A stretch of 64,000 bases of DNA from assembly GCF_001457415.1 (NCBI RefSeq), contig NZ_LN881724.1, forward strand, positions 620,001 to 684,000. Direction: 5' to 3'. Every line of letters starts with the position of its first letter. Position 1 is the stretch's first letter. The position numbers and the translations under genes were made by a program. The notes beneath the pieces were generated by a model that saw nothing but the letters and a program-made list of their open reading frames with translations, was not told where the DNA came from and did not search any database. Below are positions 19,567 through 46,551 of this stretch, one piece after another. Source of the stretch: Gorillibacterium timonense. Lineage in GTDB: Bacteria > Bacillota > Bacilli > Paenibacillales > NBRC-103111.

Positions 19567-22500
19567 ATGAGCTTGACGGATATGCACAACATCCCTCGCA
19601 ATAACCCCCGTAAAGCCTCACGCAAAGCGGCCCGGCCGATGGTCTGGCTGCTTGTGTTCGCCCTTCTGGTCAGCTTGCTGCCCACTTATTCAGCAACAGC
19701 CAAAGCAGATGCAGCAGCGATCACGAGCCCGCAGATTGGTACGCCTTATGCGGACGGCGCAGAGATCAGCTTTTTCTATCAAGGGAATGGATCGGAGAGC
19801 AAGGTTATTGTAAAAGGTGAGTTTACCGGCGACAGCTGGGGAACTCTGCTGCCGTTGGAGAAGGGTAGCGGAGATGTCTGGTCGTTGACCAAGAAGATTC
19901 CGGCCGGATGGTATGAATACGGCTTGGTGGCGAACGACAGCGACTGGAAGGCGGACCCGCTCAATCCAGTCCGGAAAAACGGAAATCCGGGGCTATCGGT
20001 TCCGGGAATCTCCTTCAAGCAGCCGACCAACATCGCTCGAGGGTCGGAGACGGTGCTCGACGCGGTTTATTATACCGGTGAGCTTGGCAAGACGGAGTCG
20101 GTGGATCTGACCGTAGCGCCTGCGGGCCAAGGGGTTGCCCTAGCGGACGGCAAGCTGGTGGTGGCAGCGGATGCGGCAGTTGGCGACTACCAAATCACCG
20201 CTACCCACGGTACTTGGAGTCTAAACCGAACCGTTCAAGTGGCGGCCTCCGCGCTTGTGAGTCCGAAGCTCGAAGCGGATGGCAGCATCTCGTTTGCCAA
20301 CGCCAGCCATACGGGCGACACTCTGTATCTTGTAGGCCAAATGAACGGCTGGAATGAGAAGACGGCGATTCCTTTTATCAAAATAGACGGACAATTCCGC
20401 TTGAATCTGAAGCTGGACCCCGGTACTTATGAATACAAATTCATCCCGACCCTCGGCAGCTGGTCCGGCGATTTCACGGACCCGCTCAATCCCAAGATGA
20501 CTGGAGGCAACTCACTAGCCATTGTCCCTGGCTTGCTCTATGAAGCGGGAACCGATGTGGCGGCGGGTAGCACTCTGGAGTTGAAGGCATCCCTGCTGTC
20601 TCCCACCGGAGAGAAGACAGAAGCGGCCCCGGTTTGGAGCTTGAAGGAGGCGGTAGATGGCATCGCGTTGGCAGGGAACCAACTGACGGTAGCGGCTGAT
20701 GCGGCTGCCAAATCGGCTGTTGTTGTCGCTGAGTATGGCGGTTACCGGTTGGAGCGGACGATCAACGTCGTCACTTCGATGAATCGGTATACCATCCATT
20801 ACTATCGCACCGACGGCAAAGCAGGTGATTGGAATCTGTGGCTGTACCCGGAAGGAAAGGAAGGCAAGGGCTATACGTTCAAAGGAGTGGATGAAGACGG
20901 CTATGCAACGGGGACCTACATATTCCCTGATACGAAGCTGAATGTGATTCCGCGCTTGTCTGTGGAAGGGAACGACTGGTCAGCTCAAGATTCTACACGC
21001 CAAGTCGAAGTCCGCAGCGGGCATGAAGCGGAAGTCTGGATCATCCAAGGCAAAGAAGGGGTGTTCTACACCAAGCCGGGTTCGATCAAGCCGGACCGCT
21101 ATATCAAGTTTACGTATACAAAGCCAGACGGCGATTTCGAAGGCTGGAACCTGTGGGTATGGAGTTCCGGCGACTCAGACGGACAAGTGAATCTCACCAA
21201 GGTATCCGATACGGAAGCGGTCGCCATCATTCCCATCAGCAAATCAACCGCCAAAATCGGCTTTAAAGTGCGCAAAGGAACCGATTGGCGGATCATTGAC
21301 CAGGACTATGACCGGGAGATTGTGACGGGAAAGAGTGCGGTAACCAAGGTGACCGTGACGGCAGGCCAAGGAGCGATTCGTACCTATCCGCCTATGTCCG
21401 CGCCGCTCTTGGCCGATGGAGCTGCGACGTTCTATTACCGGGATTCCGAGCTGTTTGCGGAAGATGAAATGAGCCAGATCAGCGGAGTGGTACTCAAGAT
21501 CGATGGCAAAGAGTACCCGATGACCTACTCCGTCGAAGATGAGATTTTCCGCTACACGCTGGATCCTCTTACTCCGGGACTGCATCCTTATACGTATTTA
21601 GTAACCAGGGACGGCGTGACAACCGAGTTGAACGACCCGATGAACACAGTAGACGGCCGCTCGGTGATCGAATATGCACTTCCCACATTTGGGCTAAGTG
21701 CGTCGGTCGCGCCGGGTGAGATCAGCTCCAACGAGAACGCAGTGATGACTTTGGCGATCGAGGGGAACGCCGCTGACGTCAAGAGCCTCTCGGCGGACCT
21801 CAGTTTCTTGGGCGGCAAAGCCGATACGGCGATTGACCCGGAACTTCTCGCGCTGACGATCGCGGTGAAGGATTCGGTGACCGCCGGAGTGAAAGCAATC
21901 CCGCTCACACTGACCGATCGCTTCGGCAACAAGCACCGCTTCCAGACGAGCGTGATGGTAAAGACTCGCCAGCAGGTAGACGCGAACGATTTCGACTGGG
22001 ATGAAGCGCGCATCTACTTCCTGCTGACCGACCGGTTCTTTAATGGAACTCAGGCGAATGACGATCCGAACGGAGAGAATTCCGATAAGACCCATCTCGA
22101 GTCCTATCATGGTGGAGATTGGCAGGGGATCACCGACAAGCTCGATTACTTGGCCGATCTCGGCATCAACACCATCTGGATTTCTCCAATTGTGGACAAT
22201 ATCGATTTCAACAAAGGGACTGACTTCGGCGGGACGCAGTATGCCTACCACGGGTATTGGGCCAAGGATTTCACGAAGACGGAGGAGCATTTCGGTGAAA
22301 TCCGCGACTTCCAGAACCTGCTCGACGCCGCTCACAGCCGCGGCATCAAGATCATGGTCGACGTAGTGCTGAATCATACCGGCTATGGCATGGACACCCC
22401 GGATACGAAGGGAATCCAGAACTATCCGACGGACGCCGAACGAAGCGTATTTGACGGAATGCTGCGTTCGAAGAACGAGGATGGCGTCGTTCGCAATAAT

Positions 22501-24759
22501 CTGGCGGGCTTGCCCGATCTGCGCACGGAGGACCCGGCGGTTCGGGCGAAGATCATCGAATGGCAGACGGACTGGATCGCGAAGACGCGTACGGAGCTCG
22601 GCAACACGATTGATTATTTCCGTGTGGATACGGTGAAGCATGTGGATACAACGACCTGGATGGCCTTCAAAAACCGGCTTACCGAGATCGCTCCCGCTTT
22701 CAAACTGATCGGGGAAAATTTCGGAGCAAGCATCGACAATGACGGAGGCTACCTGAAGACCGGTACGATGGACTCGGAGTTGGATTTCCGGTTCAAGGGC
22801 ATTGCCAGCGAATTTGTATCCGGCAAGATCGCCAGCGTGGAGAAAGAACTCGCCGCCCGCAACGAGAAGCTGGACAATACGGCGACGATGGGACAGTTCC
22901 TCAGCAGTCATGATGAGGACGACTTCCTGATCAAACTCTTGAGTGACGCCGACAGGGTGAAATTCAAAAATGGAACGCTGGATGAAGCAACGTTGCGTTC
23001 CGCACAAGCGAAGCAGATGTTGGCTGCCGCCTTGCAGATCACCGCGAAGGGCCAGCCTGTCATTTACTACGGAGAAGAGATCGGACATTCCGGTATGAAT
23101 GCCATCGACATGAGCCAGGGGTTGTTCAGCGAGAATCGCTACGATTTCGACTGGAGTCGTCTGAACGATCCGAAGTACAGCTTCATTCACGAGCATTATA
23201 AGAAGCTGCTCAACATCCGCAAAGCGAACTCCTTGCTCTTCTCCAAAGGAACGCGCACGCAGGTCGCCGGTTCGGATGCCGAAGGTTATGATGTGTTCGC
23301 GAGAAGCTATCAAGGGCAAACGGCTTATGTCGCCCTGAACATCAAGGAATCCGAGCAGATGGTTACCATCCCGGTCGGTGAGGCAGGACGATGGAAGGAC
23401 TCGTTCAGCGGAACGATCTATACCTCTGACGACAAGGGTCAAGTGACGGTTAAGCTGCCCTCCGCATTAACCGGTGGAACCGTGATTTTGCTGGCAGAGA
23501 AAGACAACGGCAATGGAAACCATAACGGAAACAACAATGGTTCCGGGACAATATGGCCAACTGTTACCTCCACTCATCTCAATCTGGTTCCAATCTCCAC
23601 AGGGAATAGAGCCAAGCAAGCGGAAGTTACCGCCACCGATTTAAAGGCAGCTATCGCCCTTGCAGCCGGTACCACAGAGCGGACCGTTGAGCTTGCCGTA
23701 TCTGGATTAGCGGCAGGAGAACGGGTGAATCTGATCCTTCCGGCTTCCGCTTTATCGTCGGAAGCGGCTCGACAAGTTTCCATCCGGATCATCGCAGGGG
23801 ACCTCGTCGTTACGATCCCAGGCGGTGCTTGGCCAATGGACGAATTGTCGCCGTCCGACCGGTTCACCTTGAGCCTGGGTACGGCATCGTCCTCCGAAAC
23901 GGCAGCGGCCGCTGCGAAGCTTCTAGCGGCTGATCCCGGCTACAAGCCTTCGGGAACAATCTTCCACCTGACACTAACAACCGGCAGCGGAAAGATAAAC
24001 GCGTTCCGGGACAAGGTCGAATGGAAACGGACGCTCAACAGTGCTGAACTGGCACTTCTGACTCAACCGGCCAAGGCGGGAGCCTACGAGATCGGCAATG
24101 TGGAGAAACCACTATATCTGGGAGGCGCGCTATCGAACGGCAGCTTCAGCTTCAAGACCGCAGCTCTGGGCGACTTCTTGATCCTGCAGTACAACAAGAC
24201 CTTCTCGGACGTGCCGGATGGCTGGGCGAAGGCATATATTGAGATTTTGGCCGCGAAGCACCTTGCAAACGGAACGGGAGAAGGCACGTTTACCCCGCAG
24301 GGAACGATTACGCGAGCGGATTTCGCCGCTTTCCTCGGCCGTGCGCTCGGCTTTGCCGAATCCGGCAAAGCCGGTTCGGCGGGTACCTTTGCAGATATCC
24401 CAGCAACTGCTTATTACGGCGGATATGCCGCTCAGTTGAAGCAAGCGGGCCTCTTGACGGGTTACGAAGACGGAAGCTTCCGCCCGAATGAAGCCATCAC
24501 ACGCGAGCAGCTTGCTGTGCTCCTGGTCCGGGCTTATGATTATGCGGCCGGATCGAAGGGGAGTCCAAGCGCAGCTGCTAAGTCGGACTTCGCTGATCTC
24601 GCGCAAGCTTCCGCGTATGCAGTCGATGCGATCCGCACCGCACAGGCGCTCGGCTTGATGGAAGGAGACAGGCAAGGCCGTTTCCATCCGTCTGCCGCCG
24701 CTACCCGCGAGCAGATCGCCAAGGTGCTGGTGCTGCTTATGGAGAAGGCGGGGATGTAA
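19567..24759 (+). CDS. S-layer-anchored pullulanase / alpha-amylase (CBM, GH13, 3x SLH)
   Basis: 1730 residues, ATG after AAAGGAG. A signal peptide (about 20-47, cleaved near ATAKA) is followed by CBM48/AMPK-type starch modules (about 55-370), two CBM41-like modules beginning RYTIHYYRTDGKAGDWNLWLY and RYIKFTYTKPDGDFEGWNLW (about 405-600), a GH13 catalytic domain (about 810-1300), a linker rich in Asn/Gly, a beta domain, and three SLH repeats (about 1545-1590, 1608-1655, 1672-1720). GH13 catalytic residues are Asp1021 (FRVDTVKHV), Glu1050 (LIGENFGA) and Asp1116 (SSHDEDD). It should hydrolyse starch, glycogen or pullulan while bound to pyruvylated wall polymer. Alpha-1,4 versus alpha-1,6 preference cannot be settled here. 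Confidence 0.93.
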   Translation: MSLTDMHNIPRNNPRKASRKAARPMVWLLVFALLVSLLPTYSATAKADAAAITSPQIGTPYADGAEISFFYQGNGSESKVIVKGEFTGDSWGTLLPLEKGSGDVWSLTKKIPAGWYEYGLVANDSDWKADPLNPVRKNGNPGLSVPGISFKQPTNIARGSETVLDAVYYTGELGKTESVDLTVAPAGQGVALADGKLVVAADAAVGDYQITATHGTWSLNRTVQVAASALVSPKLEADGSISFANASHTGDTLYLVGQMNGWNEKTAIPFIKIDGQFRLNLKLDPGTYEYKFIPTLGSWSGDFTDPLNPKMTGGNSLAIVPGLLYEAGTDVAAGSTLELKASLLSPTGEKTEAAPVWSLKEAVDGIALAGNQLTVAADAAAKSAVVVAEYGGYRLERTINVVTSMNRYTIHYYRTDGKAGDWNLWLYPEGKEGKGYTFKGVDEDGYATGTYIFPDTKLNVIPRLSVEGNDWSAQDSTRQVEVRSGHEAEVWIIQGKEGVFYTKPGSIKPDRYIKFTYTKPDGDFEGWNLWVWSSGDSDGQVNLTKVSDTEAVAIIPISKSTAKIGFKVRKGTDWRIIDQDYDREIVTGKSAVTKVTVTAGQGAIRTYPPMSAPLLADGAATFYYRDSELFAEDEMSQISGVVLKIDGKEYPMTYSVEDEIFRYTLDPLTPGLHPYTYLVTRDGVTTELNDPMNTVDGRSVIEYALPTFGLSASVAPGEISSNENAVMTLAIEGNAADVKSLSADLSFLGGKADTAIDPELLALTIAVKDSVTAGVKAIPLTLTDRFGNKHRFQTSVMVKTRQQVDANDFDWDEARIYFLLTDRFFNGTQANDDPNGENSDKTHLESYHGGDWQGITDKLDYLADLGINTIWISPIVDNIDFNKGTDFGGTQYAYHGYWAKDFTKTEEHFGEIRDFQNLLDAAHSRGIKIMVDVVLNHTGYGMDTPDTKGIQNYPTDAERSVFDGMLRSKNEDGVVRNNLAGLPDLRTEDPAVRAKIIEWQTDWIAKTRTELGNTIDYFRVDTVKHVDTTTWMAFKNRLTEIAPAFKLIGENFGASIDNDGGYLKTGTMDSELDFRFKGIASEFVSGKIASVEKELAARNEKLDNTATMGQFLSSHDEDDFLIKLLSDADRVKFKNGTLDEATLRSAQAKQMLAAALQITAKGQPVIYYGEEIGHSGMNAIDMSQGLFSENRYDFDWSRLNDPKYSFIHEHYKKLLNIRKANSLLFSKGTRTQVAGSDAEGYDVFARSYQGQTAYVALNIKESEQMVTIPVGEAGRWKDSFSGTIYTSDDKGQVTVKLPSALTGGTVILLAEKDNGNGNHNGNNNGSGTIWPTVTSTHLNLVPISTGNRAKQAEVTATDLKAAIALAAGTTERTVELAVSGLAAGERVNLILPASALSSEAARQVSIRIIAGDLVVTIPGGAWPMDELSPSDRFTLSLGTASSSETAAAAAKLLAADPGYKPSGTIFHLTLTTGSGKINAFRDKVEWKRTLNSAELALLTQPAKAGAYEIGNVEKPLYLGGALSNGSFSFKTAALGDFLILQYNKTFSDVPDGWAKAYIEILAAKHLANGTGEGTFTPQGTITRADFAAFLGRALGFAESGKAGSAGTFADIPATAYYGGYAAQLKQAGLLTGYEDGSFRPNEAITREQLAVLLVRAYDYAAGSKGSPSAAAKSDFADLAQASAYAVDAIRTAQALGLMEGDRQGRFHPSAAATREQIAKVLVLLMEKAGM

Positions 24760-24990: not shown

Positions 24991-25033
24991 TTGACATGGA
25001 TGGTTAATTGAATTATATTAAATTGCATACAAT
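24991..25033 (+). promoter_or_regulatory. Promoter and OhrR-like operator of the DUF1304 gene
   Basis: Perfect TTGACA (24991-24996), 17 bases, TATATT (25014-25019), then ATTGCATACAAT (25022-25033). The last element differs by one base from the OhrR core ATTGTATACAAT, and it sits where a repressor would block transcription start. The ohr gene at 46123 has the same layout. Confidence 0.65.
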
Positions 25034-25086
25034 ATAATAATCAAGAATAAACTTGGAAATGATCATATGGAAAAGAGGGTTACCCC

Positions 25087-25452
25087 ATGGAGATCGTAAG
25101 AAACCTGCTCGTGGCGATCGTAGCGATTGAGCATGTGTACATTTTGATTCTGGAAATGTTTTTATGGACGTCCGCAAGAGGCCAGCGGGTCTTCGGCACA
25201 ACGCCGCAATTTGCTCAGGAGACTCGCGCTCTTGGCGCTAATCAAGGGCTTTACAACGGCTTTTTGGCAGCCGGTTTGATCTGGGGCTTGGTACACGGGA
25301 ACGCGGCATTTGGCCATCAAATTCAACTGTTCTTCCTCATCTGCGTATCCATCGCGGCGATTTACGGCGGGTTCACTGCGAAAAAATCGATCCTCTTGAT
25401 GCAAGGCCTTCCAGCTTTTCTCGCTTTGTTGGCTGTGCTCGCGATCGCCTAA
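25087..25452 (+). CDS. DUF1304 membrane protein
   Basis: 121 residues with four helices. The family signature region EHVYILILEMFLWTSARGQR, the NQGLYNGFLAAGLIWG motif and a length near 120 identify DUF1304. The start follows AAGAGGG. Role unknown in general. The OhrR-like operator suggests induction by organic hydroperoxides, so a part in membrane peroxide defence is inferred. Monocistronic, with its own terminator. Confidence 0.88.
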   Translation: MEIVRNLLVAIVAIEHVYILILEMFLWTSARGQRVFGTTPQFAQETRALGANQGLYNGFLAAGLIWGLVHGNAAFGHQIQLFFLICVSIAAIYGGFTAKKSILLMQGLPAFLALLAVLAIA

Positions 25453-25473
25453 ATACGGGAAGTGGCAGAATCG

Positions 25474-25512
25474 AAAGAAGAGACCTTTACCTCTACGGGG
25501 TCCCTTCTTTTT
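25474..25512 (+). terminator. Terminator between DUF1304 and the convergent gene pair
   Basis: AAAGAAGAGACC faces GGTCCCTTCTTT with one mismatch, followed by T-rich sequence; usable from both sides. Confidence 0.7.
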
Positions 25513-46052: not shown

Positions 46053-46097
46053 TTGACATTTAAATTTATTGTGTTAAATTATATTGTATACAATATA
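46053..46097 (+). promoter_or_regulatory. Promoter and OhrR-like operator of ohr
   Basis: TTGACA (46053-46058), then TAAATT at 46075-46080 (16-base gap), then the 18-base perfect palindrome TATATTGTATACAATATA (46080-46097). The core ATTGTATACAAT is the OhrR recognition core. A regulator gene is not in the window. Confidence 0.7.
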
Positions 46098-46122
46098 TAT
46101 TCACTTAAAGGAGAAATGCACA

Positions 46123-46551
46123 ATGATGACCATTCAACAGAAAATGTACGAAACCTCGGTAAAAGCCGTTGGCGGAAGAGACGGCTATGTGGAGTCGGCT
46201 TCCCCGGCATTCCATCAGAAAATTTCGACTCCCCGGGAAATGGGAGGCGCGGGCGGAGAAGGCACCAATCCCGAGCAGCTGTTCGCCGCAGGGTACGCGG
46301 CCTGCTTCGACAGCGCGCTGAATATGGTTGCCCGCATGCGCAGGATCAAGCTGGAGGGGACGGAGATTACCAATACCGTGAGCTTCGGCAAAGTAGAGGA
46401 CGGTGGGTTTGGCATCGCAGCCAAGCTGGATATTCTCGTGAAGGGCGTCGATCACGAAACGGCTGTTTCGCTTGTGGAAGGTGCTCATGAAGCTTGCCCC
46501 TACTCCCGTGCTACGCGCGGCAACATCGTTGTTGAGCTCAACGTTCTGTAA
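46123..46551 (+). CDS. ohr: Organic hydroperoxide resistance protein (Ohr/OsmC)
   Basis: 142 residues from the ATG at 46123, fixed by AAAGGAG. Thiol peroxidase that reduces organic hydroperoxides. The two catalytic Cys occur in AAGYAACFDSAL and HEACPYSRATRGN, and the Arg in SASPAFHQKIS...PREMGG is in the usual place. ATRGN at the C-terminus marks Ohr rather than OsmC. Monocistronic between its own promoter and terminator. Confidence 0.95.
   Translation: MMTIQQKMYETSVKAVGGRDGYVESASPAFHQKISTPREMGGAGGEGTNPEQLFAAGYAACFDSALNMVARMRRIKLEGTEITNTVSFGKVEDGGFGIAAKLDILVKGVDHETAVSLVEGAHEACPYSRATRGNIVVELNVL

Follow-up and report, generated by a model that had tools for sequence, protein, structure and literature searches.

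The window analysed here is a 64-kb stretch (64,000 nucleotides) of the genome of Gorillibacterium timonense, a Paenibacillus-like bacterium. Positions 24991 to 25452 comprise a gene of the DUF1304 family together with its promoter, with the open reading frame alone occupying 25087 to 25452. The following features were recorded at this locus.

24991-24996, + strand: −35 element TTGACA of the DUF1304 promoter (sequence read directly; function assigned from the consensus)
25006-25014, + strand: AATT-G-AATT within the DUF1304 promoter, in the OhrR core form AATT-N-AATT (sequence read directly)
25014-25019, + strand: −10 element TATATT of the DUF1304 promoter, 17 bp from the −35 (sequence read directly; function putative)
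25016-25039, + strand: predicted OhrR box of DUF1304, TATTAAATTGCATACAATATAATA (scored at 18.8 bits by the matrix derived from ohrR promoters of other genomes)
25087-25452, + strand: DUF1304 gene, 121 amino acids, four long predicted helices (PF06993; E value, 2.5e−45)
25471-25512, + strand: probable terminator, a hairpin followed by a T run (minimum free energy, −14.6 kcal/mol; function putative)

Assignment of the downstream gene to DUF1304, first made from the letters alone, was confirmed by the PF06993 match, which scored 153.5 bits against a curated cut-off of 26.9. The promoter has the layout TTGACA-N17-TATATT, with the palindrome ATTGCATACAAT covering the −10/start region; the palindrome is located at 25022 to 25033, 31 bp from TTGACA when measured start to start. 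Because TATATT stands at a spacing of 17 bp, the palindrome would lie over the −10 element and the likely start region. The overlap of the box with the −10 corresponds to the geometry of a repressor site, the −35 and −10 being assigned by consensus. The AATT-G-AATT sequence at 25006 to 25014 could possibly form a second, weaker part of the operator; 24-mers overlapping it reached 7.2 to 10.4 bits with the ohrR-trained matrix. DUF1304 appears to be monocistronic, since a hairpin and T run follow it and the upstream gene, which lies in tandem, ends approximately 330 bp before it. This upstream gene (19567 to 24759) encodes a 1,730-amino-acid protein with alpha-amylase and pullulanase-associated regions and three S-layer homology stretches.

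DUF1304 is found in several bacterial phyla, and Pfam assigns it no function. Across 48 aligned sequences, H16, E23, M24, W27, N52, Q53, G54, L55, Y56, N57, G58, F59, L64, A90, G94, I102, and Q106 were invariant, of which H16, E23, N52, Q53, Y56, N57, and Q106 make up the invariant polar set. The AlphaFold2 model (mean pLDDT, 96.1; pTM, 0.87) contains four long and two short helices, and on this prediction the protein is a small four-helix protein with a putative location in the membrane. A sequence search of the PDB returned no match up to an E value of 1, and Foldseek with the model gave nothing at an E value of ≤0.001. Structural matches obtained with VIA-align were mostly helical bundles. 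One recognized membrane protein, NACHO/TMEM35A, which we take to be DoxX-like, was among the top ten (Z, 10.6; rmsd, 3.1; 105 aligned residues), with a Z of a size common for helical bundles. Comparison of the DUF1304 profile with 20 proteins of DoxX_2 (PF13564) gave an hhalign probability of 0.1 and shallow alignments, and DoxX homology was left aside as unproven. Because neither the structure nor the profile comparisons gave a clear relative, the function of DUF1304 is considered below from its regulation alone.

The sequence-only reading had likened the DUF1304 promoter and operator to those of an ohr gene 21 kb away in the same window, where the following features were found.

46053-46058, + strand: −35 element TTGACA of the ohr promoter (sequence read directly)
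46062-46085, + strand: second OhrR box of ohr, lying 15 bp before the main one (16.5 bits)
46077-46100, + strand: main OhrR box of ohr, AATTATATTGTATACAATATATAT (21.4 bits)
46123-46551, + strand: ohr, organic hydroperoxide reductase, 142 amino acids (TIGR03561; E value, 1.1e−47)

The likeness was evident on direct reading. At ohr, ATTGTATACAAT occupies 46083 to 46094 and begins 30 bp after the start of TTGACA, one base fewer than at DUF1304. Exact copies of ATTGYATACAAT were present at only two places in the window, the DUF1304 and ohr promoters. When up to two mismatches were allowed on both strands, 10 matches were obtained in the window, compared with a mean of 4.22 and a largest count of 10 in shuffled sequences (1 of 100 shuffles reached 10).

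A 24-bp palindromic matrix, close to AATTaAATTGTATACAATTtAATT, was used to score these sites. It was trained on 17 ohrR upstream regions from other genomes of the same family. The source was a set of 30 OhrR loci with upstream DNA, from which 13 rows were left out: 10 had coding-like upstream DNA, two lacked a box, and one came from the genome of the window itself. An initial matrix built from all 30 ohrR upstream regions was dropped, as coding DNA from the gene preceding ohrR had entered it, and the 17 training rows were therefore chosen after the result of this first matrix had been seen. In 10 of the 30 relatives, coding-like DNA lies before ohrR (L192, L195, L200, L202, L205, L206, L210, L211, L213, and L214); it is presumably the C terminus of a glutathione peroxidase, and this suggests a gpx-ohrR operon.

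With the final matrix, the G. timonense ohrR, ohr, and DUF1304 promoters scored 20.4, 21.4, and 18.8 bits, respectively, each at 1/501 in dinucleotide shuffles. An OhrR-like operator upstream of DUF1304, as originally proposed, was thus recovered with a matrix derived from the ohrR promoters of other genomes. Within the window, the main ohr box ranked first, the DUF1304 box second, and the second ohr box third; next came a 10.4-bit match inside the DUF1304 promoter, and values elsewhere were ≤8.2 bits. The maximum over 60 simulated windows (first-order Markov) was 13.2 bits. In the same family, 7 of 29 ohr upstream regions, own genome included, reached at least 15 bits (L182, the thirtieth row, was dropped, as its upstream DNA reads N), and so not every ohr is under an OhrR-type box.

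The genome was also searched for the regulator. At an E value of ≤1e−30 it encodes one OhrR (the L025 protein), 1.29 Mb from DUF1304, and its best PDB match was 1z91, an organic hydroperoxide resistance regulator (E value, 9.4e−37) that we take to be the B. subtilis protein; 2pfb (OhrR) and 3hrm (SarZ) were further matches. The N-terminal cysteine is present in the sequence NQICF; the 1z91 chain has S at this place, presumably the engineered C15S change. The ohrR gene that the sequence-only reading had said to look for is therefore present, and the box in its promoter (TTGACT-N17-TACAAT) is formed by ATTGTTTACAAT over the −10.

Scanning the 5.26-Mb genome for the palindrome identified exact copies of ATTGYATACAAT at three places, the third of which (C7:1764714) falls within a long open reading frame. 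Allowing at most one mismatch gave 24 forward and 23 reverse matches versus 2 and 3 for the reversed control. A 22-base pattern was modelled on the ohrR, ohr, and DUF1304 sites and hence matches these by construction; no fourth exact place was found in the whole genome, and with up to two mismatches there were 6 forward and 9 reverse matches versus 2 and 1 in the reversed control. One two-mismatch site (17.9 bits) precedes a glutathione-peroxidase gene (PF00255; E value, 1.7e−37) on contig C4, outside the window (locus L263; gene at 963 to 1448, box at 1500 to 1523). A one-mismatch site, which includes TATAAT, precedes a MarR gene, and the next gene is nitroreductase-like by likeness; this pair (L023/L260, C7:602455 onwards) is also outside the window. 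On C5 (C5:556476; L015, 1495 to 1518) a 15.1-bit match to the OhrR matrix was seen.

Taken together, the DUF1304 gene of G. timonense is very probably a member of the OhrR regulon. Gene neighborhoods of DUF1304 in other genomes bear on which repressor is involved. In Paenibacillus sp. DMB5 (L072) and in G328 (L246), DUF1304, a glutathione peroxidase on the opposite strand, and ohr follow in this order, and in G443 ohr lies approximately 0.8 kb downstream of DUF1304. In G290, from another Bacilli family and the only genome of that family with DUF1304 in the class search, ohrR is divergent to an ohr-nitroreductase-DUF1304 run in which DUF1304 comes last, and two boxes of 30.9 and 31.2 bits are located between ohrR and ohr; this genome was absent from matrix training. 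On a Priestia megaterium plasmid (L338, 2652 to 3885), boxes of 19.6 and 17.3 bits, 15 bp apart, precede a nitroreductase-DUF1304 pair; on a second Priestia plasmid, the best match was 12.5 bits, approximately 430 bp upstream, with no such neighbor in its incomplete gene table. When the flanks of 110 DUF1304 loci (80 with up to 5 kb, 30 with 1.5 kb) were searched for relatives of ohr and OhrR, one ohr (in L072) and no ohrR were identified. The neighborhoods that had been suggested as a check therefore agree in part: ohr, glutathione peroxidase, or ohrR adjoins DUF1304 in some genomes. OhrR was detected at an E value of ≤1e−25 in all 32 of the DUF1304-bearing genomes tested, and within the family at ≤1e−30 in 37/37 genomes with DUF1304 and 39/67 without, counts in which relatedness is not controlled.

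In other Bacilli outside the order, a MarR-nitroreductase-ABM monooxygenase-DUF1304 run was identified in L280 (by Pfam) and in L283 and L284 (by likeness), and in L282 a MarR gene lies directly upstream of DUF1304. These arrangements raise the alternative that a different MarR-type repressor, of the kind found in such runs, controls DUF1304 in G. timonense, where the MarR gene noted above lies approximately 43 kb from DUF1304 and carries in its promoter the one-mismatch match to the 22-base pattern. However, that match reaches 14.4 bits with the ohrR-trained matrix, which the DUF1304 site fits better at 18.8 bits, its TATAAT may simply be the −10 element of the MarR promoter, and the partners of DUF1304 in G290, L072, and L246 are ohrR or ohr themselves. 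Control by another MarR repressor is therefore considered improbable, and OhrR is retained as the very likely regulator.

Whether the box recurs with DUF1304 was assessed in related genomes. At an E value of ≤0.001, DUF1304 was detected in 37 of the 104 family genomes and in 101 of the 398 class genomes. Upstream DNA was compiled for 86 loci of the order: 36 from the same family (these exclude G009, a DUF1304-bearing genome among the 37 whose match fell below the cut-off), 28 from a second family, and 22 from Paenibacillus and Cohnella genomes identified by name; these 22 were taken as belonging to the same order and overlap the other sets (for example, L058 with L156 and L063 with L155). From the 101 class genomes, upstream DNA was read for 28 of the same order and for 15 others. 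A box was classed as direct when it reached at least 15 bits within approximately 215 bp upstream, and as weak at 10 to 15 bits. Across the 86 loci, 27 had a direct box, 4 lay behind a boxed gene, 4 had a weak box, and 51 had none. The second family accounted for 21 direct and 2 operon cases, and the Paenibacillus/Cohnella set for 4 direct, 2 operon, and 1 weak. The same family contributed 2 direct and 3 weak boxes among its 36 loci, and the link between box and DUF1304 is patchy for this reason and not universal. When upstream DNA was clustered at 75%, 52 clusters resulted, of which 12 were direct and 2 operon. Relative to the approximate DUF1304 start, box centers fell at −26 to −34, −43, −53 to −59, or −85 to −106, and these differing distances indicate that the boxes are not one inherited stretch of DNA. 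Directly upstream of DUF1304, none of 15 loci in other Bacilli and none of 58 outside Bacilli reached 15 bits, with one of the latter (L066) at 11.6. The expectation that the site would be found in relatives thus held for 27/86 loci directly and 4/86 via the upstream gene, but neither for most of its own family nor outside Bacilli. In L221, L236, L050, and L064, an OhrR-type box stands before the gene directly upstream of DUF1304, a gene that we take to be DinB-like; at three of these loci the box also serves as the upstream region of a divergent gene.

Control upstream regions in the loci of the order reached 15 bits in 15 of 238 instances. These scorers comprised DUF1304 itself (one, from L242, mis-centered in the control set and recentered for the 86-locus count), ohr (three), glutathione-peroxidase genes named by likeness (four), genes directly before DUF1304 (four), and divergent partners of such genes (three). 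Of 40 control regions from other Bacilli, 2 scored, both being the ohrR-ohr intergenic region of L278. Promoters are AT-rich, and 31 of the 36 same-family loci have no box at ≥10 bits, so that the palindrome could be regarded as a chance AT-rich inverted repeat. The shuffles, the simulated windows, and the control genes speak against this, as do the recurrence of the box in 12 upstream clusters with differing arrangements and the ohr/ohrR neighborhood, and a chance repeat is accordingly rated as quite unlikely. It is very unlikely indeed that, in genomes with a divergent upstream neighbor, the box belongs to that neighbor with DUF1304 as a bystander: such a neighbor flanks 18 of the 27 genes with a direct box (8 are tandem and one is at a contig edge, according to the ORF caller), and in most of these 18 the box lies approximately 85 to 106 bp upstream, but the upstream gene in the window is tandem, tandem neighbors accompany the box in L149, L224, L238, L243, L245, L246, and L055, and between L220 and L222 the neighbor differs while the distance from box to DUF1304 is about constant.

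Under regulation by OhrR, a dimer of the repressor would occupy the 24-bp palindrome over the −10 in unstressed cells and block transcription; repression at DUF1304 is suggested by the position of the site and by known OhrR proteins. Organic or lipid hydroperoxides would oxidize the N-terminal cysteine of OhrR and release it, after which ohr, ohrR, DUF1304, and probably the glutathione-peroxidase gene would be expressed together. The DUF1304 protein most likely acts in the membrane beside the soluble peroxidases, where its task may be, as a guess, to protect or repair the membrane or to handle a lipid or quinone-like peroxidation product. The natural reading of the regulation is a membrane role for DUF1304 in tolerance of organic peroxides or electrophiles. 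The original connection of this family with organic peroxide stress is thereby supported in silico by the box, the ohrR gene, and the relatives. A broader proposal, which is tentative and somewhat doubtful, is that DUF1304 could represent a general membrane-bound arm of the bacterial organic peroxide/electrophile response, one that OhrR or its sister MarR repressors have recruited repeatedly, in company with Ohr, glutathione peroxidase, nitroreductase, and ABM-type enzymes. It would act within the membrane, beyond the reach of soluble peroxidases, on lipid peroxides or quinones. The finding is of interest because no function is assigned to the family and because separate lineages repeat the association. 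The tie to OhrR in one order, and to ohr/ohrR or MarR-nitroreductase runs in some other Bacilli, points to stress by organic hydroperoxides or electrophiles as a concrete condition under which to look for a phenotype. It also suggests a membrane component in the Ohr response.

DUF1304 genes are listed in published expression tables, with values of 29.84 for Streptococcus agalactiae in human monocytes (PMC9902490), log2 0.62 for Acinetobacter with imipenem (PMC12263672), −2.01 for S. aureus with BC exposure (PMC9796851), and −4.45 for a comparison of Leptospira strains (PMC8055020); the table passages of these four papers tie DUF1304 neither to OhrR nor to organic peroxides. Among the open full-text papers listed on OhrR regulons (in Paenibacillus, and 8 of 55 on comparative genomics), the titles and the starts of the abstracts contained no DUF1304-OhrR link.

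Three known systems offer points of comparison. DoxX of the M. tuberculosis DoxX-SodA-SseA complex is reported to be a small protein of the membrane with a tie to oxidative stress (PMC6930017); DoxX-type proteins and DUF1304 would thus both be small membrane proteins with such a tie, the membrane location being a putative one for DUF1304. In Pseudomonas aeruginosa, the OhrR homologue OspR is reported to regulate a glutathione peroxidase, with expression responding to organic hydroperoxides (PMC4999210). Glutathione-peroxidase genes here likewise carry OhrR-type boxes, but G. timonense has one OhrR, with no second copy at an E value of ≤1e−30, and DUF1304 is in the set. A further parallel is the OhrR/Ohr regulon of B. 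subtilis, Xanthomonas, S. meliloti, and Chromobacterium, whose MarR-family OhrR bears an N-terminal cysteine and whose ohr and ohrR promoters carry palindromic AATT-N-AATT-type operators, often in adjacent pairs. AATT-N-AATT is given as the core form (PMC3469484), and several species are reported to have adjacent motifs (PMC3469484, PMC3107159). The counterparts here are the double ohr box and the AATT-G-AATT of the DUF1304 promoter. The arrangement in G. timonense differs in that ohr, ohrR, and DUF1304 lie far apart on the chromosome rather than in a cluster, and in that a gene for a predicted membrane protein, DUF1304, is very likely a new addition to this known type of regulon.
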